DNA of 24,722 nt from a virus. The notes under the pieces were generated by a model that was not told the origin of the DNA, made no database searches, and saw nothing but the letters and a program-made list of their open reading frames with translations. The stretch covers positions 1 through 24,722 of IMG/VR virus record IMGVR_UViG_3300034121_000039, one strand, 5' to 3'. Positions 3,570 to 24,722 of the stretch are shown here, piece by piece; within the stretch, counting starts at the first letter, position 1; each line of letters starts with the position of its first letter. The position numbers were made by a program, and so were the translations under genes.

Positions 3570-4066
3570 TGTTTGGCATACCACTACCTTGGATTGCATT
3601 TGTTGTGGGGCTAGCGCTCCTAGGCTCTTATCGCGGGGGCTACCATTTTGGGTGGACAGATAGAGACAATGACATGAAAATTGCCATTGCCAAGAAGAAC
3701 GAGGAAGCTCGTCAAATTGAGCAAAACTTGGGTGAGAAACTTAATCAACAATCTGCCAAACTACAGGAGGCTAATGATGCCATCAACAAAAAAACTACTG
3801 CTCTTGCTGTTGCCAATCGTGCTGGCAAGCTGCGCCTCTGCGCCCCAAGTAACGTACAAGCCCCCGCAAGTTCCCCCGTTGCCAGCGCAAATACAGAAAC
3901 AGCCAGTCAACCTGACAGACCGACTGATACAGCTTCTGACGCCGAAAGAGCAACCATCGACGCCATCGCGGAAATAGTCGCTCAAGGCGATAGAAATACT
4001 GTTGCTTTGAACGCTTGCGTAGATTCATACAATGAAGTAAGGAACCTCTTAAATGGTAAGTCCTGA
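3566..4066 (+). CDS. Inner-membrane spanin (Rz-like)
   Basis: 166 residues, starting at ATG 3566 (or 3569, next codon). A single N-terminal membrane helix at about 5-22 ('PLPWIAFVVGLALLGSY') is followed by a long charged, Gln/Asn/Lys-rich stretch likely to be a periplasmic coiled coil (about 35-90), a Pro/Ser/Thr-rich linker, and a C-terminal helix ending 'ALNACVDSYNEVR', a pattern common in Rz proteins. With the outer-membrane partner nested inside at 3777-3977 it should span the periplasm and fuse the membranes in the last step of lysis. It overlaps the endolysin gene by 14 bases. Confidence 0.85.
   Translation: MMFGIPLPWIAFVVGLALLGSYRGGYHFGWTDRDNDMKIAIAKKNEEARQIEQNLGEKLNQQSAKLQEANDAINKKTTALAVANRAGKLRLCAPSNVQAPASSPVASANTETASQPDRPTDTASDAERATIDAIAEIVAQGDRNTVALNACVDSYNEVRNLLNGKS
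3765..3770 (+). promoter_or_regulatory. Perfect Shine-Dalgarno for the nested outer-membrane spanin
   Basis: AGGAGG inside the Rz-like gene lies six bases before ATG 3777 (three before ATG 3774). A full consensus site inside a coding region and just before a second-frame lipoprotein is strong evidence that the nested gene is translated. Confidence 0.8.
3777..3977 (+). CDS. Nested outer-membrane spanin lipoprotein (Rz1-like)
   Basis: 66 residues, lying entirely inside the Rz-like gene in a different frame. The signal is 'STKKLLLLLLPIVLASC', with the lipobox LASC placing the lipidated Cys at residue 19. The mature protein is short and proline-rich ('PPQVPPLPAQIQKQP'), exactly the known character of Rz1 proteins. 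ATG 3777 follows the consensus AGGAGG at the best distance; ATG 3774 is possible. The product should be anchored in the outer membrane and pair with the inner-membrane spanin through the C-termini. The fully embedded arrangement is the same architecture known from lambda Rz/Rz1. Confidence 0.9.
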   Translation: MPSTKKLLLLLLPIVLASCASAPQVTYKPPQVPPLPAQIQKQPVNLTDRLIQLLTPKEQPSTPSRK

Positions 4067-4667
4067 CCAACTAAAACAGATGCACATAGACCCATCTCTG
4101 GCAGATGCGTTTAACGAAACTTTTGATAAGTTCAATATTTTTACGGCTCCACAACAAGCTAGCTGGATAGGTCAGTGCGGCCACGAGTGCGGTAACTTTA
4201 AGATCATGGAAGAGAATCTGAACTACCGCGCCGCTACCCTACTCAAACTGTTCCCACGGACTCCTAAACGCGCATGGGGTTTCACACCCGAGGAAGCTGC
4301 TGCCTACGAGAAGCAGCCACGTAAAATCGCCAACAGGATTTACGGGAATCGTATGGGCAACCGGGATGAGGCTTCTGGGGATGGGTTCAGGTTCCGCGGC
4401 TCCGGATTTCTCCAGCTAACTGGCCATAGTAACTTCTTCCACGCAGGCAAAGCCCTCGGTGTGGATTTCGTGATGGAGCCTGAACTAGTCCGCACTCCCA
4501 AGTACGCTGCACAAACCGCAGGCTGGTTTTGGCAAACCCATAACCTTAACCAATACGCCGACAGTCGGGATTTTTTAACAATGACTAAACGGATCAACGG
4601 CGGTACGATTGGCCTAGAAGATCGAATTAAACACATTACGCATGCTATAGCTGTATTGGGCGGTTAA
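4053..4667 (+). CDS. Endolysin, glycoside hydrolase family 19 (chitinase-like) muramidase
   Basis: 204 residues, starting at ATG 4053 with AAGGA at 4039-4043. GH19 signatures are clear: 'IGQCGHECGNF' with His44-Glu45, Glu45 being the expected catalytic acid; 'MEENLNY' (about 52-58) carrying the second conserved acidic region; and 'RGSGFLQLTG' at 115-124, the substrate-cleft loop. A late motif, 'TKRINGGTIGLEDRI', matches the family's end. Phage members of GH19 cut peptidoglycan. There is no signal peptide or cell-wall binding domain, so release needs a holin. It lies directly after the spanin pair and closes the lysis region. Length is normal for single-domain phage enzymes. Confidence 0.93.
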   Translation: MVSPDQLKQMHIDPSLADAFNETFDKFNIFTAPQQASWIGQCGHECGNFKIMEENLNYRAATLLKLFPRTPKRAWGFTPEEAAAYEKQPRKIANRIYGNRMGNRDEASGDGFRFRGSGFLQLTGHSNFFHAGKALGVDFVMEPELVRTPKYAAQTAGWFWQTHNLNQYADSRDFLTMTKRINGGTIGLEDRIKHITHAIAVLGG

Positions 4668-4704: not shown

Positions 4705-7254
4705 ATGGCTGTACTCCAAATAAAATCATTCGGTGGAATTTCACCCAAGGTTCCGCCGCGCTATCTGCAAGATAGCCAAGCACAGGTTGCTCTTAATTGC
4801 CCCGTTTTTAACGGTGCGCTGCAGCCCCTTTCCGATGTTGGTTCCGCTGTAACTACCCTCACTAAAGCAGGTACACCGCAGACTATCTATCGTTTTGGCC
4901 AAGACGTTGTTTCTGATTCTCAGTACTGGTTTCACTGGCTTACAGACGTTGATGTTTGCCGCGGTCAAATCTCTGGAGATACCTCTGAGTGGACATTCTT
5001 TACAGGCGATGGAATACCAAAGTCTACATATTCTACGATTGCTTTGTCTGGAACTCCGTACCCAGCCGTTACTCGGCCTTTGGGGTTACCAGCCCCATCA
5101 GCGGCTCTTAATGCAGGTGTAGATGCCTTTGTTGCGGATTCTTATGCCGCCGAAGTAACGCTGACTGCCACCCATATTTCCCAGCTAACGACAACCTACG
5201 GCGTTCTAGGAAGTATTACAGGACAAGCTGACGGAGATTACACAACTGTAACTTTGACTTCCCCTATTTCTGCTTCGTCTGTTGCTACTGCCATTACTGC
5301 ACTGCCCAATGTAAATGCTACTGCCGTCAATGGAACAGTCGTTGTAAAAACTGATGCCACAGGAGCCGCAACAAAACTGTACGTTAAATTCCGTACGGGC
5401 TCTGTCCCCAACACCAGCGGCACGTTTACCTATTCGGGCATTGATTACTCGGCCAGTGGAGTGGCAGACTCCTACCCCTACCTTATCATTGACGACACTG
5501 AGATTGGGTCTATTGCAGCAGGCAATGTTATTGTCCTAAGCGTAGAAGGCGTAGATCGTGTCAATGCTGCAACGTCTACTACTTTGACGGCAACTACATT
5601 GGCTACGTTTTTAAACTCAAGGATGTCTGGGCAGTTAGTCGCTACTGCCTATGGCGGTTGTGTTGTTGTAACGCCCGGATCGCTAGGCTCAACCGATTCT
5701 TCAACGATGTTTTATCGTCGTTACATTGGCAGTGTCGAGGCTAAAGTTGTTGAGGCTACTGGGTCTGACGCGGCGGCTCCTGCACGGTTGTTTATTACCC
5801 AAGCCGATGTAGATAGCTTAGAGTCAAGGTATGTTTCTGTGACTGTAAATGGCACAGAGTCCTTTGCGCCAGTGATTAACCCGTCTACTGTTAACAGTCT
5901 TAGACTACTTAATGGGTATGGTTTGACTACAACAATTTACGGCGTTGCCGACCCTATTGCAGTTGTTGAAACCATATCCGTTGGCTCTAGCGTTACGTTG
6001 CGTCTACGGGGCGGGGATTACCCAACGGTTGCGCAGTTCTCAGAATTAACGGGTGCAGGATACGCTGATACGCCTGCCGCTACAGAGACTCGCGTTTATG
6101 CATGGACGTGGGTTAACAAAGAGTCTGGCTTTGAATTTGAGTCTGCTCCCTCCGCCGCAGCCACTCCAGTAGATGTTTACCCTAAGCAGACTGTAGCTAT
6201 TTCGGGTCGGGCAGGCGTACCTACCGGCTATGTTGTTACTCATTGGCGGCTGTACCGCTCTGTTTCGGGCGTATTTTTGTTTGTGACGGAACTTCCTGTT
6301 TCTCAAATATCTTACACAGACGACGTGCTTGCAGAAAGCCTAGGTGAAGAGTTGCCATCGCTGACGTGGGCTCAACCCCCTGCAGCCCTTCGAGGTTTAA
6401 TTAATTTACCTAACGGTGGCATGGCTGGTTTTGTTGGCCGTGATGTTTACTTCTGTGATCCTTATCACCCGCATGCATGGCCTGAGAACTATGTGCAGTC
6501 TCTGGATTTTCCTGTAATTGGCCTTGGCCGCATGGATACCACACTGGCAGTGCTTACTACCGGCACGCCTTACTTTTTACAAGGCAGTCACCCAGATTCT
6601 CTGGTTTCTGTTAAGTCTGACCTTGAGCAGTCTTGCGCATCCAAACGAAGCATTGTTAGCACCAACGGTGTAGTTCTTTACGCAAGTCCTGACGGCCTTG
6701 TTTTGTTGTCTCCCGGCGGCTCTAAACTCGTAACAGAGCAGTACTTTACTCGTGCCCAGTGGCAAACTTACTTTAAGCCAGATTCGATTCACGGCTACTC
6801 CCATGATCTGAAGTACATAGGTTTCTACAACAACGGCACAACCAGTGGTGGATTTATTTATGATCCTACGTCGGGGCAGTTTGTCCTGCACGATATCTAC
6901 GCCACAGCAGGCTACGCTGATATCCAACGAGATAAGTTGTTTTTGGCCTTTGCTGATCGCTCCGTTAAAGTGTGGCAGGCAGGCGCAAACAAGACTTATA
7001 CGTGGAAGACCAAGAAGTTTACATTGCCGCAAGTCACAGGGTTTTCGTGCGCTCAACTTGAAGCTGAGACATATCCAGTTACTGCCAAGTTTTATTCCAA
7101 TGGAACTTTAATTAGGACGCAGACTGTTGCAAACCGCAATCCGTTCAGACTCCCTGTGGCTCCGGGTCGTGACTGGGAAGTTCAGATTGAAGGAACTTCT
7201 GAAGTATTCTCGTTGTCGATTGCCCAGTCTATTGAGGAGCTAGCTGGTGTCTAA
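4705..7254 (+). CDS. Tail nozzle-like protein of short-tailed phage
   Basis: 849 residues, starting at ATG 4705 with AAGGAAG 13 bases upstream. The N-terminal part ('LQIKSFGGISPKVPPRYLQDSQAQVALNC') and the C-terminal half (about 460-800), with beta-rich strands such as 'YAWTWVNKESGFEFESAPS', 'GRDVYFCDPYHPHAWPENY' and 'DGLVLLSPGG', match the pattern of phage tail proteins that form the lower tail tube (T7 gp12-like, probably a beta-propeller core). Residues about 130-450 are a Thr/Ser/Val-rich region with no obvious counterpart, possibly inserted beta domains. It overlaps the fibre gene by eight bases. The assignment rests on remembered family patterns and context. Confidence 0.7.
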   Translation: MAVLQIKSFGGISPKVPPRYLQDSQAQVALNCPVFNGALQPLSDVGSAVTTLTKAGTPQTIYRFGQDVVSDSQYWFHWLTDVDVCRGQISGDTSEWTFFTGDGIPKSTYSTIALSGTPYPAVTRPLGLPAPSAALNAGVDAFVADSYAAEVTLTATHISQLTTTYGVLGSITGQADGDYTTVTLTSPISASSVATAITALPNVNATAVNGTVVVKTDATGAATKLYVKFRTGSVPNTSGTFTYSGIDYSASGVADSYPYLIIDDTEIGSIAAGNVIVLSVEGVDRVNAATSTTLTATTLATFLNSRMSGQLVATAYGGCVVVTPGSLGSTDSSTMFYRRYIGSVEAKVVEATGSDAAAPARLFITQADVDSLESRYVSVTVNGTESFAPVINPSTVNSLRLLNGYGLTTTIYGVADPIAVVETISVGSSVTLRLRGGDYPTVAQFSELTGAGYADTPAATETRVYAWTWVNKESGFEFESAPSAAATPVDVYPKQTVAISGRAGVPTGYVVTHWRLYRSVSGVFLFVTELPVSQISYTDDVLAESLGEELPSLTWAQPPAALRGLINLPNGGMAGFVGRDVYFCDPYHPHAWPENYVQSLDFPVIGLGRMDTTLAVLTTGTPYFLQGSHPDSLVSVKSDLEQSCASKRSIVSTNGVVLYASPDGLVLLSPGGSKLVTEQYFTRAQWQTYFKPDSIHGYSHDLKYIGFYNNGTTSGGFIYDPTSGQFVLHDIYATAGYADIQRDKLFLAFADRSVKVWQAGANKTYTWKTKKFTLPQVTGFSCAQLEAETYPVTAKFYSNGTLIRTQTVANRNPFRLPVAPGRDWEVQIEGTSEVFSLSIAQSIEELAGV

Positions 7255-11041: not shown

Positions 11042-11466
11042 AAACTTACGCTTGCTATGAACCTAGTGGTCAGTACATTGTTACTGGTACCTGCGAAAAT
11101 GATCTAACAGAATACGACATTCCCGACGGGTGCTCTGTGTACTACGGCGAGGTTAGCATTATCACGCAATACCACGATATTGCAACAAACATTCCGGCTG
11201 AAAAGGGTGCGCGGCCATCCGATGGCTACAAATTTAACTACACGACTAAGTCGTGGGAGCCCGATACGGCGTACTTGATTTACAAGATTGGCGTTGTTCG
11301 TCTTCAGAAGTTACAAGAATCCGACTGGACTGACACCGCTTCTGCGCCTGCACGACTTGGCCAAACTTTGTACGATCAGTGGCAGACTTACCGTCAAGCC
11401 TTACGAGATATCCCAGAACAACCCGGCTACCCTTTAAATGTGGTATGGCCAACTCCTCCGCAATAA
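11038..11466 (+). CDS. Tail fibre assembly chaperone-like protein
   Basis: 142 residues, starting at ATG 11038 in a four-base overlap with the fibre stop. The C-terminal half carries 'LQKLQESDWTDTASAPA', 'QWQTYRQALRDIPEQPGYPLNVVWPTPP', the hallmark of a phage tail assembly chaperone domain (PF16778-type, from memory), in which a Trp-containing 'SDWT' segment is followed by 'WxxYRQALRDIP'. The N-terminal half ('YACYEPSGQYIVTGTCENDL') is a small beta domain often fused before it. Directly following the fibre gene, it probably helps fold or attach that fibre; it may also be a minor virion part. Confidence 0.82.
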   Translation: MKTYACYEPSGQYIVTGTCENDLTEYDIPDGCSVYYGEVSIITQYHDIATNIPAEKGARPSDGYKFNYTTKSWEPDTAYLIYKIGVVRLQKLQESDWTDTASAPARLGQTLYDQWQTYRQALRDIPEQPGYPLNVVWPTPPQ

Positions 11467-11474
11467 GACATAAT
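11446..11474 (+). promoter_or_regulatory. Possible promoter for a leaderless GNAT-like gene
   Basis: CATAAT at 11469-11474 (five of six -10 bases) and TGGCCA at 11446-11451 (four of six -35 bases) are 17 bases apart. A start of transcription near 11481 would fall on the ATG of the next gene, which has no Shine-Dalgarno sequence. The match is modest and could be chance. Confidence 0.25.
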
Positions 11475-11480
11475 ACGCAC

Positions 11481-11897
11481 ATGGCAGAACTCGTCTTTGA
11501 CCAGAAAGAACGTATAGGGAACTGGGTAGCCGAACAAACAGGGCAAGACTCCAGTTGGGGTTCTTTTTATGCCTTGGGCGTTATTCGTGGAGAAGATGTT
11601 ATTGCAGGAGTAGTCATCAATAACTACAATGGATCAAATGCTACATGTCACATTGCTGTTGCTCAACACACAAAACTTCTTGTGCCGTTGTTCCATCACG
11701 TCTGTGACTACGCGTTTAACCACTGTAAATTGAAACGATTGACCGGCATGGTACCCACAAATGAACCCTCGATTATTGCGTTTGACAAGCATCTTGGGTT
11801 TGAGGAAGAGTTTGTAATGAAAGACGGCGCACCCGGCGCTGATATGCAGATTTTGGTAATGCGGCCCGACAACTGTCGTTGGCTGCGCAAGGAGTAA
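11481..11897 (+). CDS. Divergent GNAT-like acetyltransferase-fold protein
   Basis: 138 residues, from ATG 11481, the first ATG after the previous stop and matching the start of the domain; a longer in-frame start at 11379 would lie inside the chaperone-like gene. The strand/helix order fits the GNAT fold: 'YALGVIRGEDVIAGVVINNYNG', 'CHIAVAQHTK', 'FHHVCDYAFNHCKLKRLTGMV', then 'TNEPSIIAFDKHLGFEEEF', the classic 'N..S....klGF..E' end. The usual acetyl-CoA loop (R/Q-x-x-G-x-G/A) is not evident; 'AQHTKLLVP' stands there. It may therefore be a weak or non-catalytic member. GNAT-like proteins near tail genes are known in environmental phages; the target is unknown. Confidence 0.7.
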   Translation: MAELVFDQKERIGNWVAEQTGQDSSWGSFYALGVIRGEDVIAGVVINNYNGSNATCHIAVAQHTKLLVPLFHHVCDYAFNHCKLKRLTGMVPTNEPSIIAFDKHLGFEEEFVMKDGAPGADMQILVMRPDNCRWLRKE

Positions 11898-11899
11898 AT

Positions 11900-12850
11900 A
11901 TGGGCGGAAAATCGCAACCAGCACCAGACTACGGGCCAATGCAAGCCATTGGGCGCGAACAGTTAGACTTTGCTAAACAACAATACGCAGAGATGGCTCC
12001 ACTTGCTCGTCAAGTAGCCGCTCAACAAATGGCCGCTCAGCAGCAACAGATGCGACAAGGTCAGGACTATTACGACTACCAACAGCAAACGTTTAGGCCG
12101 CTAGAGCAGGGGCTTGTTCGAGACGCTGAACGATTTAATACCGAGAACTACCGAGAAACTTTAGCTCGCGATGCAGCCGCAGCCGCTGGCCGAGCCTTTG
12201 GTACAACTCAAGCAGCCTCCCAACGAGCCCAAGCTTCTATGGGGGTAAACCCTGCCTCTGGTCGGGCAATGTCAATGGCTAACCAATCTAATCTTGGCCT
12301 TGCTGCTAATCGTGCCAATGCTATGACAGGTGCTCGTAACCAAGCTGAACAGATCGGATTTGCTCGTCGTCTTGACGTTACAGGTCTTGGCCGTAATCTG
12401 GCTGGTGCTTCTACCGCTGCCTACCAAGGTGCTACAGGCGCAGGTTCTGCAGGCATCAATACATCCATGGCTCCCGGTTCACAGTATGGCCAAGGCATGC
12501 AGCAAGCTGGTCAAACCTACGGCAACATTCTTAGTAACCAGACTAGCCAGTTTAATACTGGCCTTAATGCGCAAGGTGAAGTTACAGGTGCTTTGACGGG
12601 GGCTATTACAACCGGCGCGTTAAGATACTCTGATCGTCGCTTAAAAGAAAATATTGAAGTCGTTGGCCGCGATGAGCGCACCATGTTGCCGCTCTATGAG
12701 TTTGAATACATTGGCGGTTCTGGCAAACGCTACCTTGGTGTGATGGCTGACGACGTAAAAGTTGGCTACCCCGAGATGGTATTCACAATGCCTGATGGCT
12801 ACGAAGCAGTAAATTACGCCGGTCTAGGCATCGAAATGGTGGAGGTTTAA
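11900..12850 (+). CDS. Virion protein with C-terminal S74 self-cleaving chaperone domain
   Basis: 316 residues, from ATG 11900 with AAGGAG at 11889-11894; an in-frame alternative start upstream at 11879 lacks such a site. Residues 1-235 are Ala/Gln/Gly-rich and mostly helical with tandem 'QQMAAQQQQ'-like runs, as in internal virion (DNA ejection) proteins. The C-terminal end carries 'SDRRLKENIEVV' from Ser244 to about 255, then 'LPLYEFEYIGGSGKRYLGVMADDV'. This is the S74 intramolecular chaperone signature; Ser244 and Lys249 have the five-residue spacing of the known catalytic pair, so self-cleavage before Ser244 is predicted, releasing a 73-residue piece. That piece is shorter than typical S74 tails. 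Confidence 0.8.
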   Translation: MGGKSQPAPDYGPMQAIGREQLDFAKQQYAEMAPLARQVAAQQMAAQQQQMRQGQDYYDYQQQTFRPLEQGLVRDAERFNTENYRETLARDAAAAAGRAFGTTQAASQRAQASMGVNPASGRAMSMANQSNLGLAANRANAMTGARNQAEQIGFARRLDVTGLGRNLAGASTAAYQGATGAGSAGINTSMAPGSQYGQGMQQAGQTYGNILSNQTSQFNTGLNAQGEVTGALTGAITTGALRYSDRRLKENIEVVGRDERTMLPLYEFEYIGGSGKRYLGVMADDVKVGYPEMVFTMPDGYEAVNYAGLGIEMVEV

Positions 12851-12851
12851 T

Positions 12852-14474
12852 ATGGGTTTCGCATCAGGATTCCAAGTAGGCGCACAAGCGGTCGAGCGTG
12901 GCCTAAAACTGCGTGAAGAAGAACAAGAACGCCGCGCTATGGAGAAAATCCGAGGCGCTACTGCTAACGAGTTCCAAGACTACGGTACTGCGGGAACTCA
13001 GCAGATTCAAGGTTTGCAGAGCTCTGGCGCTTATGATGTACAGGCTGTACCCGGTGCTGAAGGTCAGGCACCTACGCTTCGCTACACCCCCAAGCAAGGA
13101 CTCGACCTCCAAGGCGATACGCCTGCACCTGCTGGCGCATATATCGATGTAGCACCCCAAAGAATGACCGAGTATCTTGGGCAACGCTACGAAGGCGGTT
13201 TAGCACCTGAGCGTATGGAAACAATCCGTACCCGTGCTATGGCAAATGCTGTAACAGACCCACGGCTACGTCAACAAATGTTAATGAATGTGACCGCCGA
13301 AGAGCGTGCACAGACAGCGGAAGGACGCGCTGCTGCGGGAGAACTCCGCGCACAAGAAGGGTTTAAAACCCAGCAAGAAGCTAGTTTATTAACGATTGAA
13401 GAACAAAAACGTCTAAAAAAACAACGCGATGAAGATGAAGCTCGCCAAAAACAATTGTCAAAAGACTGGTCTGACCGCTTATCTGTTAAAGACGCCGACG
13501 GAAATGTTACGGGCATGCGTCCTCCAACTAATGAAGACATGATGTGGGCTGCTCAGAGCAACGCAAAGAACCTTGCCGCCGCTGGAAAAATCCCAGAAGC
13601 TTTAGCTTCTTTCAAAGACTACATGACCACAGCAAAGGGTCAGATTGAACTGCAAGGTGTTGAGCGCACTGAGGCTATCCGCACCGCCGTTGCCAAAGTA
13701 AACAATGGTGACCTTGACGCTGCTAAAGATTTCTATGATAAGTTTGTGCCTGATGGCGCAAAAGTCAAAGAGTTTAAGCCAAACGCGGACGGCTCAATTA
13801 CTGTTAAGCGTGTTGACTTAAACGGCAGCCCACTACCCGATACTAAGACTACTAAAGACGAAATCTTAAAAGGTCTTGTGGCGTTTAACGACCCAGCAAA
13901 ACTAATCGATTACGCACAGCAGTCGTTCATGAACAACATTCAAACTGAGCAACTTGGTTTGCAAAAACGGAATACAGCGACTTCAGAAGGTCAGCTTAGA
14001 GTATCGCAAGCTAACCAGCTCCTTGCTGAAGACACTGCAGCATCGAACAAGATGACCCAGATGCGTCAGCTAAGTATTGCAGAACAGCGTGCTAAGCAAG
14101 CCCTTCCACAAGGGTTAAAAACTTTTAAAGACAAAGAAGGTAACGTTGTTCTTGTGGATACCACTAGATTAGAAGTTGGTAAAGACGGTGTTCTAAAGAC
14201 ACCCAAAGGCTTGGTACCTGTTACTACGCAGACTGAACCGTCTTACGGAGACGTCCGCAACCTAGCGGCTGACATTCTGAAAGACCCGCAGCAGAATAAG
14301 AAAATGGTAGATGGTAAGAAGGTACCTATTACTCCTGCTGAAGCCGCTGCTAAAGCCCGTGCGGCGTTAATTAAACAGAACGCAAATATGGGTGATGAAG
14401 ACCCAACTGACAGATTAATTCGTCTAATGAGAAATGCGCAGGCAGGTAATGTTGTAGACTCCGAAGTAGATTAA
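12852..14474 (+). CDS. Probable internal virion (ejection) protein, coiled coil
   Basis: 540 residues, from ATG 12852 with GGAGG at 12841-12845 and one base after the previous stop. Starts 'MGFASGFQVGAQAVERGLKLREEEQERR', a helix typical of ejection proteins. The middle has long charged helices ('EEQKRLKKQRDEDEARQKQL', about 180-200; 'AQQSFMNNIQTEQLGLQKRN', about 355-375) with no membrane segment or enzyme motif. Its place between the S74 protein and the 2077-residue giant matches the order of the three ejection proteins in T7-type phages. The specific role is inferred from position. Confidence 0.65.
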   Translation: MGFASGFQVGAQAVERGLKLREEEQERRAMEKIRGATANEFQDYGTAGTQQIQGLQSSGAYDVQAVPGAEGQAPTLRYTPKQGLDLQGDTPAPAGAYIDVAPQRMTEYLGQRYEGGLAPERMETIRTRAMANAVTDPRLRQQMLMNVTAEERAQTAEGRAAAGELRAQEGFKTQQEASLLTIEEQKRLKKQRDEDEARQKQLSKDWSDRLSVKDADGNVTGMRPPTNEDMMWAAQSNAKNLAAAGKIPEALASFKDYMTTAKGQIELQGVERTEAIRTAVAKVNNGDLDAAKDFYDKFVPDGAKVKEFKPNADGSITVKRVDLNGSPLPDTKTTKDEILKGLVAFNDPAKLIDYAQQSFMNNIQTEQLGLQKRNTATSEGQLRVSQANQLLAEDTAASNKMTQMRQLSIAEQRAKQALPQGLKTFKDKEGNVVLVDTTRLEVGKDGVLKTPKGLVPVTTQTEPSYGDVRNLAADILKDPQQNKKMVDGKKVPITPAEAAAKARAALIKQNANMGDEDPTDRLIRLMRNAQAGNVVDSEVD

Positions 14475-17400: not shown

Positions 17401-20400
17401 CTAATGGAACACCGTTCGAAAAGACACTTGCACAAGCTATTAAGTTAGCTGTCAAAGGTAAAGCGCCAATCAACATTGTATTTGTTAAAGAAGGCAAGTC
17501 CCAGTACGACCCTAAGACAAACACCATTACGATCAGTGAGACAAGCAGTAAAGAAGTTGCATTGCACGAGGCGTTGCACGGTGCACTACAGTGGTTTGTA
17601 TATACAAATCCTAACGCTGCGCAAGTGGTTGCCCTCAAAGCTGCTTTGCAGAGAGTGGTCAATTTTGACACTGATAAACTAACGCCTAAAGCGGCCGAAG
17701 TGCAGGCTGTGCTTAAAAAGATTCTTGCTGGGAAAAGCAAGACTGCTGAACTTGATGCGGTGCTTGAACTTATATCCTACGGGAATACCCTTAATGACTT
17801 CCGTCGCGCACTGCAAGGTATGGAGAGCAATGCTCCTCGCACATTTACCAAGTTTGCTAACGACGTTATGGATGCGATTTACGCGCTTGTTCGCCGCATG
17901 CTGGGCTCTAGCCAGACCGTTGCTTCTGACGTTATGGAGAACACGTTCCAATTGCTTGAGGCCGCCCGCGTCGCAGAGAAAACTGACGGTGGCAAAGGTA
18001 ACATTTTAAAAGCCGAAGTCCAGAGTAACATTTCAAATCCTGCGCAACAATCTGTGCAGTTAAACCTTCAAAAATACAAAGACGGCCCCGGCTGGTCTAT
18101 TAACATCACACGTTCTTTCTTAGAACAGGCTGGCTTTGGTGAAGGCGGTATGCGAGAAGCTCAGGCAAAACAGCTTATGAAAAAAGCTGCTGATAAACTT
18201 GTTACAGAATTCCCCGGCCTTACAAAAAACTTGCGCATGATTGCGTCTAGCTTTGGATTAGCTACTGAGTATAAACAGGCTGCTGCAGTTTCTAAACAAG
18301 AACGCCAAGGCGGTTTAGTCGAAGCTGAGTCTTTGATACAACGTTTATATCGTTCTCCTGCTGATGCTGTGCGTGTGTTTACATACCTTAACGGAGATCA
18401 AACTGCGCTAGAAAAAACAGGCCGCGATGCAGTTCTTCGGGATACTGCAGATGCGATTTCAGAGCTAATCGACTCGTATGTGAAAACGTTGTCTCCTGCT
18501 GACAAGCGCATGTTTGATGGTTTAAAGTTTACGGACAAGTTGTTGAAGCCGCAGGGCTTAGCTGACTTGGCTAAGAAATCTTTTGGCATGCACAGTGTAA
18601 GTGCCATTTTCCGCCCCGAAGATCGCAAAGAGGCAAACATTGAAGACTTTAAGGCGTTACTGCCAATGACCAACAATGTGGTGGACTCTGATAAACCGTT
18701 GTTCCAAACTTTCGAGACACTTGGCGGTCAGCGAGTACCTAACGGTTTTGTTGGTGAAGAACAAGCTAATGACCACCCAGAACTTGATATTGACCGTAGC
18801 CGTGTGTGGTACTTTAACGGCGTTAAGAACAAAGAATTTGTTTTCCGTACGCGCAATATCAGCGGCGCTAACCTCATTGACGTAGCTAGACGCATGGGGG
18901 ATGAAAAACTTTCCACACAGGAAAAAGAAGAGGCTTCGCAACAGATCAGTTCTGCGTTACTGACCACCATTGCAGCGCTATCGCACAACGCCGCTACTAA
19001 AAATCTGTTTGCTTCTATGGAGCCAATGGGTCGTAACGAAGACGGCACAGCTACAGAAAGTACTGTAGTTTTTAACAGTGTAGATGAAATTAATGAACTG
19101 TTCCCTAAGCGTCAGCTAACTGAAGCCAATTTGCTTAAAGCTTCTGACGACGAATCTAAGATCAGAGAAATTCGCGGTACTGCCCAACGTGGCGATGTCT
19201 GGATACGCTTGCCTGACACAGATCATTACGGCCCTTTACGCAACAAGATTATCTCTGGTGGCGTCTGGAGCAATTTGCTGGATATGCATGAGCGGCAACC
19301 GCTTATCAACAATGAGTTGTTTAACAACATCATGGCCGCGTTTAAGAAGAACAAAACCGTGTTCTCTCCTGCTACGCACGCCAATAACATTCTGACTAAC
19401 TACGCAATGATGTTATTGCATGGTATCTCTCATAAGGCAGTGGGCGACGCCGCAAATCTACTTGTCCGCTACGAGGTTAATCCCGGTTCATTAAACGCTG
19501 AGCAACGGGCAATCATGAAAGCGTTCTATAAGTCTGGTGCTGTGCTTGGTAACTTTACCAACGCTGAAACCAAAACATATCTGGCCAAGAAGTTGGCACA
19601 AAATATTACACAGCAAAACGAACGTTCACTGCTGACCAAGCTGTCTGCGTTAGCTGGCTATGAGCAGGAGTTCTCTAAGTACGCGTCTAAGATCGCTCGT
19701 GGTGCTAAGCTTACGGATAACGCCGCATCTGAAGTATATGCCGCAGGCGATAACGTGTTCCGTTTAGCTGCATTTATGAACGTTGCTGGCAACTTGCAGG
19801 CTAAGAATGATGGCGTCCTTGGGGATGCCCAACTAAAAGAAGCGGGCCTTGCTGCTCGTAAAATGTTCCTTGACTACGACATCGATGCTCGTGCAGTTAA
19901 AGCTGCTCGACAGTCCGTTCTTCCGTTCGTATCTTGGTCGTACGCTATCATGCCGGTACTTGGTCGTTTAGCTATTACCAAGCCATGGACGATGATTAAC
20001 ATGATGGCCGCACTCTATGCAATGGGCATGATGGGTGACGATGATGAGTGGCGTCAGACTGGGCCTAAAGCTGTTCGTGAGCGTTCGCTGTGGGGCATGG
20101 GGCCATATAAGATGATTCGTATCCCGTTTATGGGCACTGACGAAAATCCTATGTATTACAACATCGGTAAATCAATCCCAATGATGTCGTTGTTTGAACC
20201 TGCACAGGGCAAGTCAAAGCTATTTGGAAACGAATATATTCCCGGCTCTCTTCAGCCTTCGGGCCCTTATGTAACATTGTTTGCAAATACATTGCTGAAC
20301 GTAGACCCGTTTACCGGCAAACCAATCTACGGTGAGACCGACGATAACTTAGACCGCGTTGTTAAGTCTGGCAAAGCAGTATGGGACACGTTTGCACCAT

Positions 20401-20720
20401 CTCCTTTAACTTTCCGCACCGGTAGTCAGATCAGTGACTGGGCTCAGGATAAAGAAGGCCCGACTGGCAAGCCTAACGATGGCCTTGTGTTCGCGCGTTT
20501 GTTTGGCCTTAGCATATACCAATATGACCAAGCTGAGACACAGTACTACCAAGATGCTGAAATCAAGAAAATTAAGAGCGAGTTCAAAAAGGAAATGAAC
20601 AAAGCCAAGCGTGATGAAATGTCTAAAGGTTATCCTGACTATGAAGCTATGGACGAAAAACTTGAAAAGTTAAACCAAAGACTTGAAGAAAGACTCGCTA
20701 AAATTAGAGGAGACGAGTAA
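14487..20720 (+). CDS. Giant internal virion protein with zinc-metallopeptidase motif
   Basis: 2077 residues, from ATG 14487. Regions: an N-terminal segment and then Gly/Ala-rich hydrophobic helices (about 60-280, 'AAAPLIAASAIPGVGPALSASI') likely to insert in a membrane; a Pro/Thr/Ala-rich linker (about 460-700); charged helices (700-950); a zinc-peptidase-like domain (about 980-1060) with 'YDPKTNTITISETSSKEVALHEALHGAL', His1027-Glu1028-x-x-His1031 being an HExxH motif after a beta hairpin; and a long helical C-terminal half with hydrophobic stretches ('NNILTNYAMMLLHGI', 'PWTMINMMAALYAMGMMG'). Size, place and build match the largest DNA-ejection protein of short-tailed phages. I see no transglycosylase signature. 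The third zinc ligand is not identified. Confidence 0.75.
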   Translation: MADLNKIRKAFPEFKDTSDAELIGQISKMTRTSTGEISDLLGIAPRGTLAESARQFAGGLVSDLPKMFGQAAQYVVPEGSQAYIDAQGLVKRAEARGIGYEPDLRGRGLGGEIAVKGARGVGAAAPLIAASAIPGVGPALSASIAAPLFGLSSAQETYEKILEQTGDKEAATSAARRVGVIQGLGEAAATFVGGKAVQGLAPVFGGGAKTTGGVLAGLTDTAVLKPFAKSMAINAAVQPGTEVAQDLGSYAVEQAYGAKAEDPTAIARESAIGGLGMSLWLGPLSLGGHRSRAKKAEQFSLAYNEAMYGEGATPQSRDAALKTVVNEAKRQGVTIDNAEQWMQRQLREEAASLDNLKKQEDALVEAGKESPLADISYALTDPELSQKISDTDRQTLIGLLDTVRLGKLSPQATDAIVTQAKGIIGRYFVAQQDPNAELNLLQSTSLNVKPALLAPTPKEEIDLAGGLTQVQTNLPADPTAYAPDTNVGREMPRMQQPAPVDVATGISTVAPGVFEVNQPLQQVETTPAAAPALETPVTTPASVSSAALTPTATKTSTQGLTTNTYTATDAQGVPVTVNVTRGVTGRVTRAEVVKTDKNGKVTEKRTLTNFGEAAISPTDSAFLQTALADYTFGQPAAPVVASAPLGGEAKATPLPSAPAAGGVFPTPLTTPVTTSVTTPVIQDGTQTTQTQQTETQGQKPATAADVTADEVDTGPKNVSEAIKEDNKNDAILKAIETENEKTDNLFASVTGDTKKAPGKPSMPSQVYAAIRNAILNPKGAIMVRKAKSVEKDAAATEKYGAKVKAIADAARDLANAYETYTKQNLVRSDETIKRNETADEAMSDRATVLKANANAVRAALAKLGEAVGGNAKDVEAVVRFVKDRAQNEQKGNVETKKTDLRLSRAWAAAKSEAFIGEPDLLATSGNEVRQSKEGTARGAVPQLVTAATEGYQVMGKGAKQDGLNGILNYIRTNGTPFEKTLAQAIKLAVKGKAPINIVFVKEGKSQYDPKTNTITISETSSKEVALHEALHGALQWFVYTNPNAAQVVALKAALQRVVNFDTDKLTPKAAEVQAVLKKILAGKSKTAELDAVLELISYGNTLNDFRRALQGMESNAPRTFTKFANDVMDAIYALVRRMLGSSQTVASDVMENTFQLLEAARVAEKTDGGKGNILKAEVQSNISNPAQQSVQLNLQKYKDGPGWSINITRSFLEQAGFGEGGMREAQAKQLMKKAADKLVTEFPGLTKNLRMIASSFGLATEYKQAAAVSKQERQGGLVEAESLIQRLYRSPADAVRVFTYLNGDQTALEKTGRDAVLRDTADAISELIDSYVKTLSPADKRMFDGLKFTDKLLKPQGLADLAKKSFGMHSVSAIFRPEDRKEANIEDFKALLPMTNNVVDSDKPLFQTFETLGGQRVPNGFVGEEQANDHPELDIDRSRVWYFNGVKNKEFVFRTRNISGANLIDVARRMGDEKLSTQEKEEASQQISSALLTTIAALSHNAATKNLFASMEPMGRNEDGTATESTVVFNSVDEINELFPKRQLTEANLLKASDDESKIREIRGTAQRGDVWIRLPDTDHYGPLRNKIISGGVWSNLLDMHERQPLINNELFNNIMAAFKKNKTVFSPATHANNILTNYAMMLLHGISHKAVGDAANLLVRYEVNPGSLNAEQRAIMKAFYKSGAVLGNFTNAETKTYLAKKLAQNITQQNERSLLTKLSALAGYEQEFSKYASKIARGAKLTDNAASEVYAAGDNVFRLAAFMNVAGNLQAKNDGVLGDAQLKEAGLAARKMFLDYDIDARAVKAARQSVLPFVSWSYAIMPVLGRLAITKPWTMINMMAALYAMGMMGDDDEWRQTGPKAVRERSLWGMGPYKMIRIPFMGTDENPMYYNIGKSIPMMSLFEPAQGKSKLFGNEYIPGSLQPSGPYVTLFANTLLNVDPFTGKPIYGETDDNLDRVVKSGKAVWDTFAPSPLTFRTGSQISDWAQDKEGPTGKPNDGLVFARLFGLSIYQYDQAETQYYQDAEIKKIKSEFKKEMNKAKRDEMSKGYPDYEAMDEKLEKLNQRLEERLAKIRGDE

Positions 20721-20974
20721 TGGCTAAAACACCAGCTTGGACACGCAAAGAAGGTAAATCGGAAAAAGGGGGCTTGAACGCCAAGGGGCGAGCCTCGTAC
20801 AATAAAGCCAATCCCGGGAAGCCGGGACTCAAGGCCCCTCAACCTGAGGGTGGCCCACGACGTGACTCATTCTGTGCCCGTATGGAAGGCATGAAAGAGA
20901 AGCTGACCAGTGCGAAGACTGCAAACGACCCTAACAGTCGTATCAATAAATCACTACGTGCTTGGAAGTGCTAA
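20720..20974 (+). CDS. Small basic phage protein, DUF6321-like
   Basis: 84 residues. ATG 20720 shares one base with the stop of the giant gene (TAATG), with AGAGGAG just upstream. Pattern: 'AWTRKEGKSEKGGLNAKGRASY' then 'GGPRRDSFCARMEGMKEKL', 'TANDPNSRINKSLRAWKC'. This order is that of a family I recall as DUF6321, widespread in phages, with no known function. It is rich in Lys, Arg and Gly, so nucleic acid contact is possible. It opens a run of six tiny basic genes. Confidence 0.8.
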   Translation: MAKTPAWTRKEGKSEKGGLNAKGRASYNKANPGKPGLKAPQPEGGPRRDSFCARMEGMKEKLTSAKTANDPNSRINKSLRAWKC

Positions 20975-20975
20975 C

Positions 20976-21158
20976 ATGGCTACCAAATCAACTGTTAATG
21001 CCGCTGGCAATTACACAAAGCCTACACTTCGCAAGAAGATTGTGGCTCAGGTAAAGTCCGCGGCAACGCAAGGCACTGGTGCAGGCCAATGGTCTGCTCG
21101 TAAGGCACAGCTTGTTGCTAAGAAGTATAAGGCAGCAGGCGGGGGGTATCGAGATTGA
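20976..21158 (+). CDS. Small basic phage protein, DUF5872-like
   Basis: 60 residues, from ATG 20976, one base after the previous stop; a longer in-frame start at 20910 lies inside the previous gene. The core 'LRKKIVAQVKSAATQGTGAGQWSARKAQLVAKKYKAAGGGY' matches a short motif family (QWSARKAQL...Y..AGGGY) that I remember as DUF5872. It is Lys-rich. Function unknown. Its stop overlaps the TTG start of the next gene. Confidence 0.75.
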   Translation: MATKSTVNAAGNYTKPTLRKKIVAQVKSAATQGTGAGQWSARKAQLVAKKYKAAGGGYRD

Positions 21159-21388
21159 AAGCCCCACAACAATCCCTAAAAGACTGGGGCGACCAAAAAT
21201 GGAGAACCAAAAGTGGTAAAAAATCTTCTGACACAGGTGAAAGATACCTTCCAAGCGCTGCGATTAAAAGTCTCAGCCCTAGTGAGTACGCTGCGACAAC
21301 CAAAGCCAAGCGAGCCGGAAAAGAAGCCGGAAAACAATTCGTAGCGCAACCAAAAAAGATTGCGGCTAAAACTGCAAAATTTCGTTAG
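21155..21388 (+). CDS. Small basic phage protein with TTG start
   Basis: 77 residues. The start is TTG 21155, which overlaps the previous stop as TTGA; no ATG fits, and the residues right after it ('APQQSLKDWGDQKWRTKSGK') match the conserved beginning of related phage proteins as I recall them. Later elements: 'TGERYLPSAAIKSLSPSEYAATTKAKRAGKEAGKQF', ending in a Lys/Ala-rich tail 'PKKIAAKTAKF'. No enzyme motif. The family often sits next to the QWSARK protein, suggesting linked roles. Confidence 0.75.
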   Translation: MKAPQQSLKDWGDQKWRTKSGKKSSDTGERYLPSAAIKSLSPSEYAATTKAKRAGKEAGKQFVAQPKKIAAKTAKFR

Positions 21389-21407
21389 ACTTTAATTGGA
21401 GATTACT

Positions 21408-21554
21408 ATGTACGGTAAAAAAATGAATCCATTTGGCAAAGGCGAGTCCAAAGCCATGGAAGCCAAAGAAAAGAAAATGGCTCCTAGCAAAAAGGCTTAT
21501 GCCGCTATGGAGAAGAAGCACGAAGGCAAAAAATCAACCTCTAAGATGAAATAA
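21408..21554 (+). CDS. 48-residue Lys/Met-rich protein
   Basis: ATG 21408 is preceded by TGGAG. The protein has 15 Lys in 48 residues and begins 'MYGKKMNPFGKGES'. The next gene begins 'MMYGKMM', so the two may be related at their N-termini. No motif beyond strong basic charge. Function unknown. Confidence 0.6.
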   Translation: MYGKKMNPFGKGESKAMEAKEKKMAPSKKAYAAMEKKHEGKKSTSKMK

Positions 21555-21563
21555 GGAACCACC

Positions 21564-21701
21564 ATGATGTACGGAAAAATGATGATGGCTAAGGCCCCCG
21601 CAAAAGCTGGTAAAAAAGCTGCTCCATTTAAGCCTTGCCCCGGTTGCAAGAGCCCTGCTAAGTGCAAAGCCGCTGGCAAGTGTTTAGCTAAAGCCAAGTA
21701 A
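21564..21701 (+). CDS. 45-residue Lys-rich protein with four-Cys cluster
   Basis: ATG 21564 (or 21567) follows AAGGA at 21553-21557. The protein begins 'MMYGKMMMAKAPAK' and then carries 'PCPGCKSPAKCKAAGKC' with Cys25, 28, 34 and 40 (C-x2-C-x5-C-x5-C), a plausible metal-binding knuckle. It has 12 Lys in 45 residues. Its stop shares one base with the next start (TAATG). A tiny nucleic acid-binding protein is possible but not shown. Confidence 0.6.
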   Translation: MMYGKMMMAKAPAKAGKKAAPFKPCPGCKSPAKCKAAGKCLAKAK

Positions 21702-21853
21702 TGCCATTTACGTCTGAGAAGCAAGCTCGCACTATGCGGGCTGCTGCACATGATCCTAGCTTTGCAAAGAAGCTGGGTATTGAAGTCAAAGCTGCCAAGA
21801 AAATGGTAGCCCATGACAAAGCCAAGGGCGCTAAGCCCAAAGCCAAGAAGTAA
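21701..21853 (+). CDS. 50-residue basic protein, last gene of the plus-strand module
   Basis: ATG 21701 overlaps the upstream stop by one base. It starts 'MPFTSEKQARTMRAAAHDPSFAKKLGI', a pattern like small phage proteins beginning 'MPF.S.kQ.r.M.aA', and ends in a Lys/Ala tail. Its stop (21851-21853) directly touches the complement of the HNH gene's stop. Function unknown. Confidence 0.65.
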   Translation: MPFTSEKQARTMRAAAHDPSFAKKLGIEVKAAKKMVAHDKAKGAKPKAKK

Positions 21854-22130: not shown

Positions 22131-24722
22131 TTATTGTCCCACAGCCGCGCCATTTAGAACAGCAAGTAGCACAGGGCTTTGCTCTCTAGACGTGGTGCCG
22201 GTCAGGGTTGCTACAAACCGAGGGTGGTTCAGGTTAACGATCAAGCAGTGTGTCTGGCCGGGGCTTCTGTCCTTGCATCCTTTGAACATAGTCACGCGGT
22301 CTCGCTTGGCAATCATCGCACCGTTAAGTTCTAGCTCCCGCTCAATCCGGTCAATGCCATCCTGCGTTCTACCTAACCATGCTTTAAACAAAGCCAAGTT
22401 GATCGCAATCATGCTACCGGGCATGACAGGGTTCTTGGCATCATAAACAACCTTGACACGGGCAACTGCTTTATCTGGAGCCGGTTGTGTCACCTGCTCT
22501 TTACCTGAACTGTAGACCTCAGTGCAATGCACCAAGCGGTCGTTGTGCTCCATGATGTACTGGCCAATCGTATCAAATACATCTGACTTACTTTCAATTG
22601 CAGCTTGCCGAGTTTGTTTGACGCGGTCAATCATAAAGTCAATGGTTCCCTTTATATCGAACGGGAACAAACCCAAGGCTTGGCCAATACGACCCATGCC
22701 CCATGATGCAATAAGTAGCGTCCTGTAGAAACGCTCTTGGGGTTCAAATATAAAACCAAACGTTTTGTTAAACGATGCTTCAGACCATTTCCATACAGCT
22801 TCAGGGCCGCCCTTGTCGATCACAACTTGCACAAGCTCTGGGAAAGCCCAACCGTTATGCTTCTCTACGATCTCAAAAAAGTCATACCCGTAGCTACGCC
22901 CATCTTCTCGGGTAGCGACAAAAGTTCTATCGTGTTGCGGGAACTCTAAGCAACGTGCTTTCAGTGGATCGTTGCCTGCCTGTGCATTTTCAAACTTCCG
23001 ATACATCGAAATGTTAGACGTGACATGAGTAGGAGCGCACCACTTAGCAGGTTCACGCAACTCGCGTTCTTTCGTCATTGAAATCTTTTCGCGACCAGAA
23101 CTAAGTGTGTAGCCCATGTCGGCCATGTCTTTGTCGTCAGCCGCAGTCATCTCGTCGATACAACATGGCAAGTTATTTAAGACACCGCGCATTTTGTATA
23201 GAGCGTTCGCAGTATCTTTCTGGCTCAGGAACAATTCCTTCGGGCTACCGATCAAGCTGTTCACTCCGATAAGAGATAGTGATTTACCAGTTGTCGTTTC
23301 ATCAGAATAGATCGACACAATTGCTGTTGCGTTACCGGCGGCAGGGCCTAGGATTCCCACTGTGCCTGTTAATACTGACGCACGAATATTGTCAGCACCG
23401 GGTAGGTTCAGCATGTCCATCGCGCGAATCCACTCAGAGCGTTCACCATGCGGGCCGATAAGTCTAGCGAAGTTGGACGCAGGGCCGCGAAGGCGTGTGT
23501 CTGTGGCACCCGTTGGAGAGCCTAGCACTGTCTGGCCGCACATAAACGAGCCGTCTTCTTGCCAACCGAAGTTAACAAAGTCCAATCCTGTTGGTGCTTG
23601 CTGTTGCACCATCGTCAAGTAATCCATCAAATAGCTCCTAACTTTTTCTTGCTGTCCAGCATTCTTTACGTAGATTTGTTGGTTCAATAAAAATGTAGAA
23701 AAGTCTTTACCAATCGTCGCGAGCACAGACATCTCATGCTCTGTCTCTTTCCATCCAGTCATTGGGTACTTCGCAATCATTCGGAATGCAGACTTGCGAC
23801 TTTCGGAATCGTGATACACACCCGTGATGTGAATCTCGTACTGGCACACATGGTCAAACTCTGTTACCTCTTGGGCTACTTCATTGCCGTTTGCATCAGT
23901 CGTTGTGATCTCGGTCTTGACCTCACGCATGATCTGGTTGTTCTGAATAACATAGCCCTTGGGCAGTGTGAACGTGAACTCTTCGCCTTCCTCAGTAACA
24001 ACTTCAGTCTCAGTAACAACCGATAACTGCGCGGGGCTTGTAATCTTTCCACGGCTTGGGCAACCTTCGCAGCCCTTAGCGCACAACTGCTCAAACTTCG
24101 CACACGTCGTAGGCCCAGTGCCGTTCCAACCCTTGAGCTTATCCATGCTTGCGGCTAGATCAAAGTCAGGGTGCGTTCCTGCGATCATGATGACCGCTTC
24201 CTGCACATCTGTGCAATGCTTAGCAAGACCTAACGATGCACGCCATAAAGGTTCTTCTACATTGCGACCTGCGGCATCTAACACGCCACCAGAAGCTACA
24301 AGCGCACCCACCTGAGCACAACGCCCTGCGACCGCGGTAAGTACAACATCGTTTGTGTTGAGCACTGCATCAAGGATCGATGATCTTGCACCTTTGCGTG
24401 ATGCTGTTGTCTTTGCATTCTTTGGCAACTTACCAAACCACGGCTTCAATACCGTGAACAACTCTACTGGATCGTAGTCAGGGCAATCACGTTTGCACTC
24501 GACCAACTTCCACGGCTGTTGCTTTTTATGATGCGTACCAACTGGACGAAGCACCATCGATGGATCATGAATTTTGCTTGTGTCGATCTCGACACCATGC
24601 TCTTCAAGCGCAATGCGAAGCGCGGTAGAAACCTTTATCCAATGCTCTTTCGAAATGTTCTGAGTCATTGGCCAGTAGCAGTGAATACCACGACCGGAAG
24701 AGATGACCATAGGCTGAGGCAT
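22131..24722 (-). CDS. Phage primase-helicase, 5' end outside the window
   Basis: 863 residues are visible and the frame is open to the right edge; an ATG sits at the edge but the true start is probably further out, because the visible part opens in the middle of a primase domain ('VISSGRGIHCYW', like motif 'SSGgGlHvYW' of archaeo-eukaryotic primase/PrimPol proteins). Next, a Cys cluster at about 204-223 ('CAKGCEGCPSRGKITSP'). The helicase part has a Walker A-like 'SDETTTGKSLSL' (about 472-483) and a Walker B-like 'CCIDEMT' (about 518-525), as in DUF927-type helicases. It would make primers and unwind phage DNA. It ends 25 bases before the HNH gene. Confidence 0.85.
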   Translation of the reverse strand: MPQPMVISSGRGIHCYWPMTQNISKEHWIKVSTALRIALEEHGVEIDTSKIHDPSMVLRPVGTHHKKQQPWKLVECKRDCPDYDPVELFTVLKPWFGKLPKNAKTTASRKGARSSILDAVLNTNDVVLTAVAGRCAQVGALVASGGVLDAAGRNVEEPLWRASLGLAKHCTDVQEAVIMIAGTHPDFDLAASMDKLKGWNGTGPTTCAKFEQLCAKGCEGCPSRGKITSPAQLSVVTETEVVTEEGEEFTFTLPKGYVIQNNQIMREVKTEITTTDANGNEVAQEVTEFDHVCQYEIHITGVYHDSESRKSAFRMIAKYPMTGWKETEHEMSVLATIGKDFSTFLLNQQIYVKNAGQQEKVRSYLMDYLTMVQQQAPTGLDFVNFGWQEDGSFMCGQTVLGSPTGATDTRLRGPASNFARLIGPHGERSEWIRAMDMLNLPGADNIRASVLTGTVGILGPAAGNATAIVSIYSDETTTGKSLSLIGVNSLIGSPKELFLSQKDTANALYKMRGVLNNLPCCIDEMTAADDKDMADMGYTLSSGREKISMTKERELREPAKWCAPTHVTSNISMYRKFENAQAGNDPLKARCLEFPQHDRTFVATREDGRSYGYDFFEIVEKHNGWAFPELVQVVIDKGGPEAVWKWSEASFNKTFGFIFEPQERFYRTLLIASWGMGRIGQALGLFPFDIKGTIDFMIDRVKQTRQAAIESKSDVFDTIGQYIMEHNDRLVHCTEVYSSGKEQVTQPAPDKAVARVKVVYDAKNPVMPGSMIAINLALFKAWLGRTQDGIDRIERELELNGAMIAKRDRVTMFKGCKDRSPGQTHCLIVNLNHPRFVATLTGTTSREQSPVLLAVLNGAAVGQ

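Follow-up and report, generated by a model that had tools for sequence, protein, structure and literature searches.

A zincin-like metallopeptidase domain of the phage polyvalent-protein kind within a giant, probably ejected phage protein

Introduction

The phage T7 protein gp16 carries a transglycosylase. Zincin-type domains are also already known in injected phage proteins, and the metallopeptidases (MPTases) of phage polyvalent proteins have a described layout that comprises a helix, a three-stranded sheet, a HExxH-containing helix and a Glu-containing helix, with a variable insert between the last two (PMC5512222). For these enzymes Iyer et al. considered both autoprocessing, before or after packaging, and the cleavage of host proteins, and they noted that the vRNAP of phage N4 is packaged unprocessed (PMC5512222). 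A model of recombinant N4 vRNAP spans residues 1007-3500, save for two loops and a linker, and includes the HExxH domain (PMC12633501, preprint), and the ejection protein of phage phiM1 has been modelled within the capsid (PMC11440229). In the literature we found no phage member with a demonstrated metal, activity or substrate.

Here we analyse a phage contig of 24,722 bases, referred to throughout as the window, in which a single gene for a 2077-aa protein carries a HExxH motif. The domain around this motif belongs to the zincin-like metallopeptidases described in phage polyvalent proteins (Iyer 2017, PMC5512222), and thus to a kind already known.

Results

The 2077-aa protein is the large protein of the window's late virion gene block, in which it lies behind the tail and structural genes (Table 1). 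Upstream of its gene are genes for a PHROG 511 protein, tail tip and tail fibre assembly proteins, and proteins of 323 and 540 aa. The 323-aa protein matches a virion structural protein family (PHROG 8003, E 7.5e-32) and a DNA ejection protein family (PHROG 4287, E 4e-7), and searches of Pfam, PHROG and NCBIfam with the 540-aa protein gave no match. A trio of internal proteins of ~340, 540 and 2000-2260 aa, of which the 2077-aa gene is the third, is kept in the same order in relatives (323/540/2077 aa in the window, 342/556/2257 aa in relative L002 and 370/518/2010 aa in L045). The 2077-aa protein very probably enters the bacterial cell along with the phage DNA; its own ejection is suggested by gene order and by homology, including that to zincin-bearing virion proteins of solved structure.

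Other features of the window include a GH19-type endolysin at 4053-4667, which places this phage's own muramidase-like lysis enzyme apart from the ejection proteins, and an acyltransferase (PHROG 4470, host takeover class) at 11379-11897, between the tail fibre assembly and ejection genes. The 323-aa protein ends in a Peptidase_S74 chaperone domain (12629-12781, E 1.2e-5), an unusual place for a tail-fibre chaperone. Behind the ejection gene, small lysine-rich ORFs stand in a row at 20720-21850, the first of which is a DUF6321 protein (E 4.7e-19), and a DUF927 helicase/primase-like protein encoded on the minus strand at 22131-24722 is cut by the contig end.

Table 1. Coordinates of the domain, its gene and neighbouring or related virion protein genes
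Feature	Position	Strand	Basis
Virion protein, 849 aa	4705..7254	+	PHROG 511 'internal virion protein', E 2.6e-142
First ejection-module protein, 323 aa, gp14-like position	11879..12850	+	PHROG 8003 and PHROG 4287 matches
Second ejection-module protein, 540 aa, gp15-like position	12852..14474	+	Position and size kept in relatives
Giant internal virion/ejection protein gene, 2077 aa	14487..20720	+	Single ORF; closes a run of three adjacent genes (323, 540, 2077 aa) behind the tail genes
Predicted zincin core (residues about 976-1101) with one helix, then three strands, the HExxH helix, a two-helix insert and the Glu helix	17412..17789	+	AlphaFold model
Strand 1 of core, residues 996-1000	17472..17486	+	DSSP on model
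Beta hairpin, strands 1006-1008 and 1013-1017, around YDPKTNT	17502..17537	+	DSSP on model
HEALH, residues 1027-1031: two putative zinc-ligand His and putative general-base Glu	17565..17579	+	Invariant in 45 sequences
Glu1094, predicted third zinc ligand (motif LELISYGNTLNDF)	17766..17768	+	Invariant in 45 relatives; aligned Glu in 14 distant proteins
Helical extension past Glu helix, residues 1102-1162	17790..17972	+	Model; conserved with domain
GNILKAEV linker motif (residues 1171-1178), at the site of the ART-PolyVal cassette of relatives	17997..18020	+	18/19 close members
phikF77 gp41	L067:6759-10772		Zincin profile match, no lytic Pfam family
phiM1 putative internal core protein, PDB 8VB2	L084:2161-5952		Zincin profile match, no lytic Pfam family

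HEALH lies where the first-pass annotation had read it and is the sole HExxH of the 2077-aa protein; among composition-preserving shuffles of the protein, 0.3% contain a HExxH (expected 0.004). Every giant ORF checked among the relatives (mostly 1800-2500 aa) has a HExxH at the same mid-protein place, and H1027, E1028, H1031 and E1094 are invariant in 45 of 45 distinct relatives that are 19-90% identical to the window domain, which together argue that HEALH is more than a chance occurrence. Y1007 and P1009-T1013 are also invariant in the 45 sequences; as Y[DN]PKTNT was the seed with which the collection of relatives was scanned, we set the invariance of YDPKTNT aside as an artefact.

An AlphaFold model built from the 45 sequences (pLDDT 91.9, pTM 0.91; secondary structure by DSSP), which replaced an earlier fold from 5 sequences (pLDDT 69), has helices at residues 963-973, 976-989, 1022-1040 (with HEALH) and 1087-1101 (with E1094), and two inserted helices between the last two. 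The modelled core agrees with the published layout of the polyvalent-protein MPTases, including the insert between the HExxH and Glu helices. It also contains the beta hairpin that had been claimed to precede HEALH, and the third zinc ligand that structure prediction was to locate is predicted to be Glu1094, on the helix that follows. A fold lacking a zinc site, or His and Glu residues not conserved in relatives, would have contradicted the annotation; neither was seen, the model having a zincin core and the residues being invariant across the 45 relatives. The interval proposed for the domain, 17428-17660 (residues 981-1058), holds HEALH but is too short, as the predicted third ligand lies beyond its end.

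In a viral structure library, the best match to the model was an uncultured phage 'Large polyvalent protein associated domain-containing protein' (78% identity over 145 columns, E 2.6e-14), and lower matches included vRNAPs, internal core proteins and an ART-PolyVal-like protein. Fold matches in the PDB were weak (best E 0.1), with the top ones being mostly zincins: an IrrE-like regulator, ArdC, abylysin and selecase. No Pfam zincin model reached its cut-off on the 2077-aa protein. Tox-MPTase4 (PF15640) gave no listed match to it and sub-threshold scores of 12-14 bits, against a cut-off of 25, in relatives. Pfam matches to Tox-GHH2, CCDC90-like and OrgC were rejected as sub-threshold noise.

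Searched by tblastn against annotated phage records, the whole 2077-aa protein gave no match at E 1e-5, and the zincin domain gave matches only at E 0.2-0.3, to N4-like vRNAPs, that were followed through intermediate relatives and later confirmed by profile comparison. IMG/VR yielded seven relatives by whole protein and 58 loci by domain alignment. Candidates came up among GTDB genome contigs, none of them a relative, and a plasmid collection held no sequence match to the window zincin domain. No other part of the 2077-aa protein is as conserved as the zincin domain: against L008, identity is 93% over residues 961-1060 and 26-64% in regions outside the domain, and against L002 the same segment has the lowest dN/dS of those measurable (0.026), a rough ratio given that dS is near or past saturation in many bins. 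Among the relatives, the giant protein of the L058 ORF at 4086 has HExxH at residue 882 and again at residue 1337, and may contain a pair of zincin domains, and in L041 an FtsK gamma DNA-binding domain (6045-6224, giant ORF residues 476-535, E 2e-21) occupies the N-terminal part of the zincin-bearing protein.

The domain profile matches eight N4-like vRNAPs as well as six phiKMV-group and Xanthomonas-phage proteins (phikF77 gp41 and those of phiM1, FE11, Kpn13, LIMElight and NUT20), and by inspection the HExxH and a downstream Glu, equivalent to Glu1094, align in each of these 14. Comparison of the window-family zincin with the vRNAP zincins by hhalign gave a probability of 98 (E 2e-14), and profile-profile comparison with phikF77 a probability of 97. 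Among virion proteins of solved structure, the profile matches the internal virion protein 9sfn_G (E 6e-13), the phiM1 tetrameric ejection protein gp48 (8vb2_A, E 3.5e-6) and gp10 (23sg_S, E 2.7e-5). Because the module recurs in N4-like vRNAPs and phiKMV-group proteins, including 9SFN and 8VB2, the carriage of zincins by ejected proteins is well supported. The C-terminal parts of the window family, the vRNAPs and the phiKMV group have no kinship detectable by hhalign, and the zincin thus behaves like a portable module. Two proposals for the C-terminal half of the 2077-aa protein, that it is held in common with vRNAP C2 or the phiKMV-group proteins (one vRNAP match, probability 20%) and that it contains LPD38 (a further hhalign run), were unsupported. 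In phi-2 and Lidtsur, the corresponding third internal virion protein is shorter and has no zincin domain. Motif, model and homology together strongly support the central claim of the first-pass annotation, that a HExxH zinc-peptidase domain of the polyvalent-protein type sits within the giant ejection protein.

In L002, L007 and L008 the zincin is immediately followed by an ADP-ribosyltransferase domain, ART-PolyVal (PF18760). Of the 21 members scanned by Pfam, six carry it. It is absent from the window protein, where the zincin is the sole recognised enzymatic domain rather than one of several unrelated ones. Five places in a zincin-region tree have an ART-bearing next to an ART-less member: L031/L027, whose zincins are identical, L020/L018, L026/L028, L002/window and L016/L003, the last two weakly supported. 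ART is thus a cassette that is gained and lost beside a zincin that is retained. The cassette was observed behind the zincin in L002, L006, L008, L016, L020, L026 and L031, with repeated gain and loss among close relatives whose zincins are near-identical.

In 18 of 19 close members a GN/GK-x-L motif (GN-[IV]-L-x-A-like) is found 138-147 aa past HExxH, and in L002, L006, L008 and L016 a second GN-x-L-x-A copy behind ART brackets the cassette. We note that a GN[IV]LxAxV motif at a fixed distance past the zincin could be a recombination seam, a hinge or a cleavage site.

Discussion

From the computed motif, conservation, fold and homology to virion-protein domains we infer a role that covers ejection, metal, activity, timing and target. 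Residues about 976-1101 would form a gluzincin-type metallopeptidase of the phage polyvalent-protein kind, with the metal bound by His1027, His1031 and Glu1094 and with Glu1028 as the general base; conservation of Glu1028 argues for catalysis. The giant protein would reside in the capsid and be ejected alongside the DNA, carrying the zincin unprocessed as an accessory enzymatic module of the ejectosome. We propose, with moderate confidence, that this protease does its work once ejected and not during capsid assembly, with a protein of the host or the ejectosome as its most likely target. The timing is borrowed from N4, whose vRNAP is packaged unprocessed and retains its HExxH domain, and from phiM1, whose ejection protein was modelled in the capsid. 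As phi-2 and Lidtsur have third internal virion proteins without the domain, it would be accessory and unneeded for ejection itself.

The main rival, which we regard as a real but clearly lesser possibility, is that the zincin cuts its own polypeptide, in the head or after ejection, for example at the adjoining linker, freeing ART where present. Autoprocessing has been proposed for polyvalent proteins generally, with the processing of P1 DdrB as the model (PMC5512222), and the position of ART directly behind the zincin, bracketed by the two motif copies in four relatives, fits such a scheme. The zincin is, however, kept unchanged where ART is absent, as in the window, which suggests that it is more than a releaser of ART, and the second motif copy may be just how ART domains normally end. 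The N4 and phiM1 evidence from which we take the timing also speaks against self-cleavage.

It is unlikely that the domain is purely structural or regulatory, serving without catalysis as a zinc-stabilised scaffold of the ejectosome or as a contact with a partner domain. The C-terminal region of N4 vRNAP, with its HExxH subdomain, contacts and inhibits the polymerase (PMC12633501), and an E229A variant of ArdC, in which protease activity was expected to be lost, still functioned in conjugation (PMC7213743), so that a conserved zincin need not serve proteolysis in every assay. However, Glu1028 would be needless for structural zinc, yet it is invariant in the 45 relatives and the 14 distant proteins, and the phi-2 and Lidtsur ejection proteins lack the domain altogether.

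That the domain is an endolysin or transglycosylase is very improbable, even though proteins of this type are so named. PHROG 342 and many GenBank records call the phiKMV-group proteins 'internal virion protein with endolysin domain' or 'peptidoglycan lytic exotransglycosylase', and an endolysin/exotransglycosidase-like domain was assigned to Asp268-Asp528 of phiM1 gp48 by BLASTP and DALI (PMC11440229). Pfam, however, detects no lysozyme or SLT domain in phikF77 gp41, phiM1 gp48, Kpn13, LIMElight or FE11, and the zincin profile matches residues 379-512 of phiM1 gp48 (E 2.5e-9), with HEAAH at 385 and the putative ligand Glu in HEFISQ. The alignment of PHROG 342 with the phikF77 and phiM1 proteins starts only at profile position 169 or 192. 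The initial part of this profile probably represents the lytic domain found in T7 gp16-type members, and the phiKMV-group label appears to have been inherited from such members with an N-terminal lytic domain. On these sequence comparisons the phiM1 gp48 label is likely a misassignment, one that would affect many phiKMV-group annotations. The earlier remark that no transglycosylase is seen in the giant protein holds as far as Pfam can tell, as no transglycosylase or lysozyme was found in the 2077-aa protein, 21 family members or the 540-aa neighbour. Its companion, which gives T7-type ejection proteins a transglycosylase instead, has to be corrected for the phiKMV group, where the earlier of two successive ejection proteins has the lytic domain and the later one the zincin (in phikF77, gp40 is Phage_lysozyme and gp41 the zincin). 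Lastly, a chance HExxH in a helical structural protein, for which the shortness of the motif might speak, is refuted by its rarity in the shuffles, by the invariance that includes Glu1094, and by the fold model.

A more far-reaching proposal, which we consider speculative and rather doubtful, is that the zincin is a standard protease module of podovirus ejectosomes that acts inside the infected cell and that, in the phiKMV/LUZ19/phiM1 group, has long borne the wrong name of endolysin. It would then cut the GN[IV]LxAxV linker in the window's family, and relatives with two copies would release ART as a free effector.

This analysis supplies a predicted third ligand and many new, diverse sequences of a protease domain that is very probably injected by phages. 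In relatives with solved virion structures the domain has been described as cell-wall-degrading, and its reassignment would bear on the tasks of the ejectosome besides channel-making. The gain and loss of ART beside a constant zincin offers natural comparisons for separating the two functions.

Comparison with known systems

ArdC of R388, an antirestriction protein, has a gluzincin motif and a weak fold match to the window domain, but is a plasmid protein with an ssDNA-binding domain. T7 gp16 occupies the same position in gene order, as the last of three internal virion genes, whereas the window protein has a zincin instead of the transglycosylase. The phiKMV-group proteins (phikF77 gp41; LUZ19-like 9SFN; phiM1 gp48, 8VB2) are likewise encoded by the third ejection gene and contain the zincin HExxH and Glu; they differ in size (1200-1370 aa), in their endolysin label and in a C-terminal part without detectable homology to the window protein. 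The N4-like vRNAPs of the Schitoviridae have a homologous zincin (the C1 domain of N4 gp50) in a giant ejected virion protein, while the window protein has no polymerase match and flanks that are not clearly homologous. Compared with the polyvalent-protein MPTases (PMC5512222), the window protein has lost or lacks ART, and its C-terminal half matches no catalogued LPD domain, but it shares with them the HExxH helix, the Glu helix, the three-strand core and a place in a giant late-gene protein, its relatives have ART-PolyVal as a neighbour, and its structural neighbours are named large polyvalent proteins.
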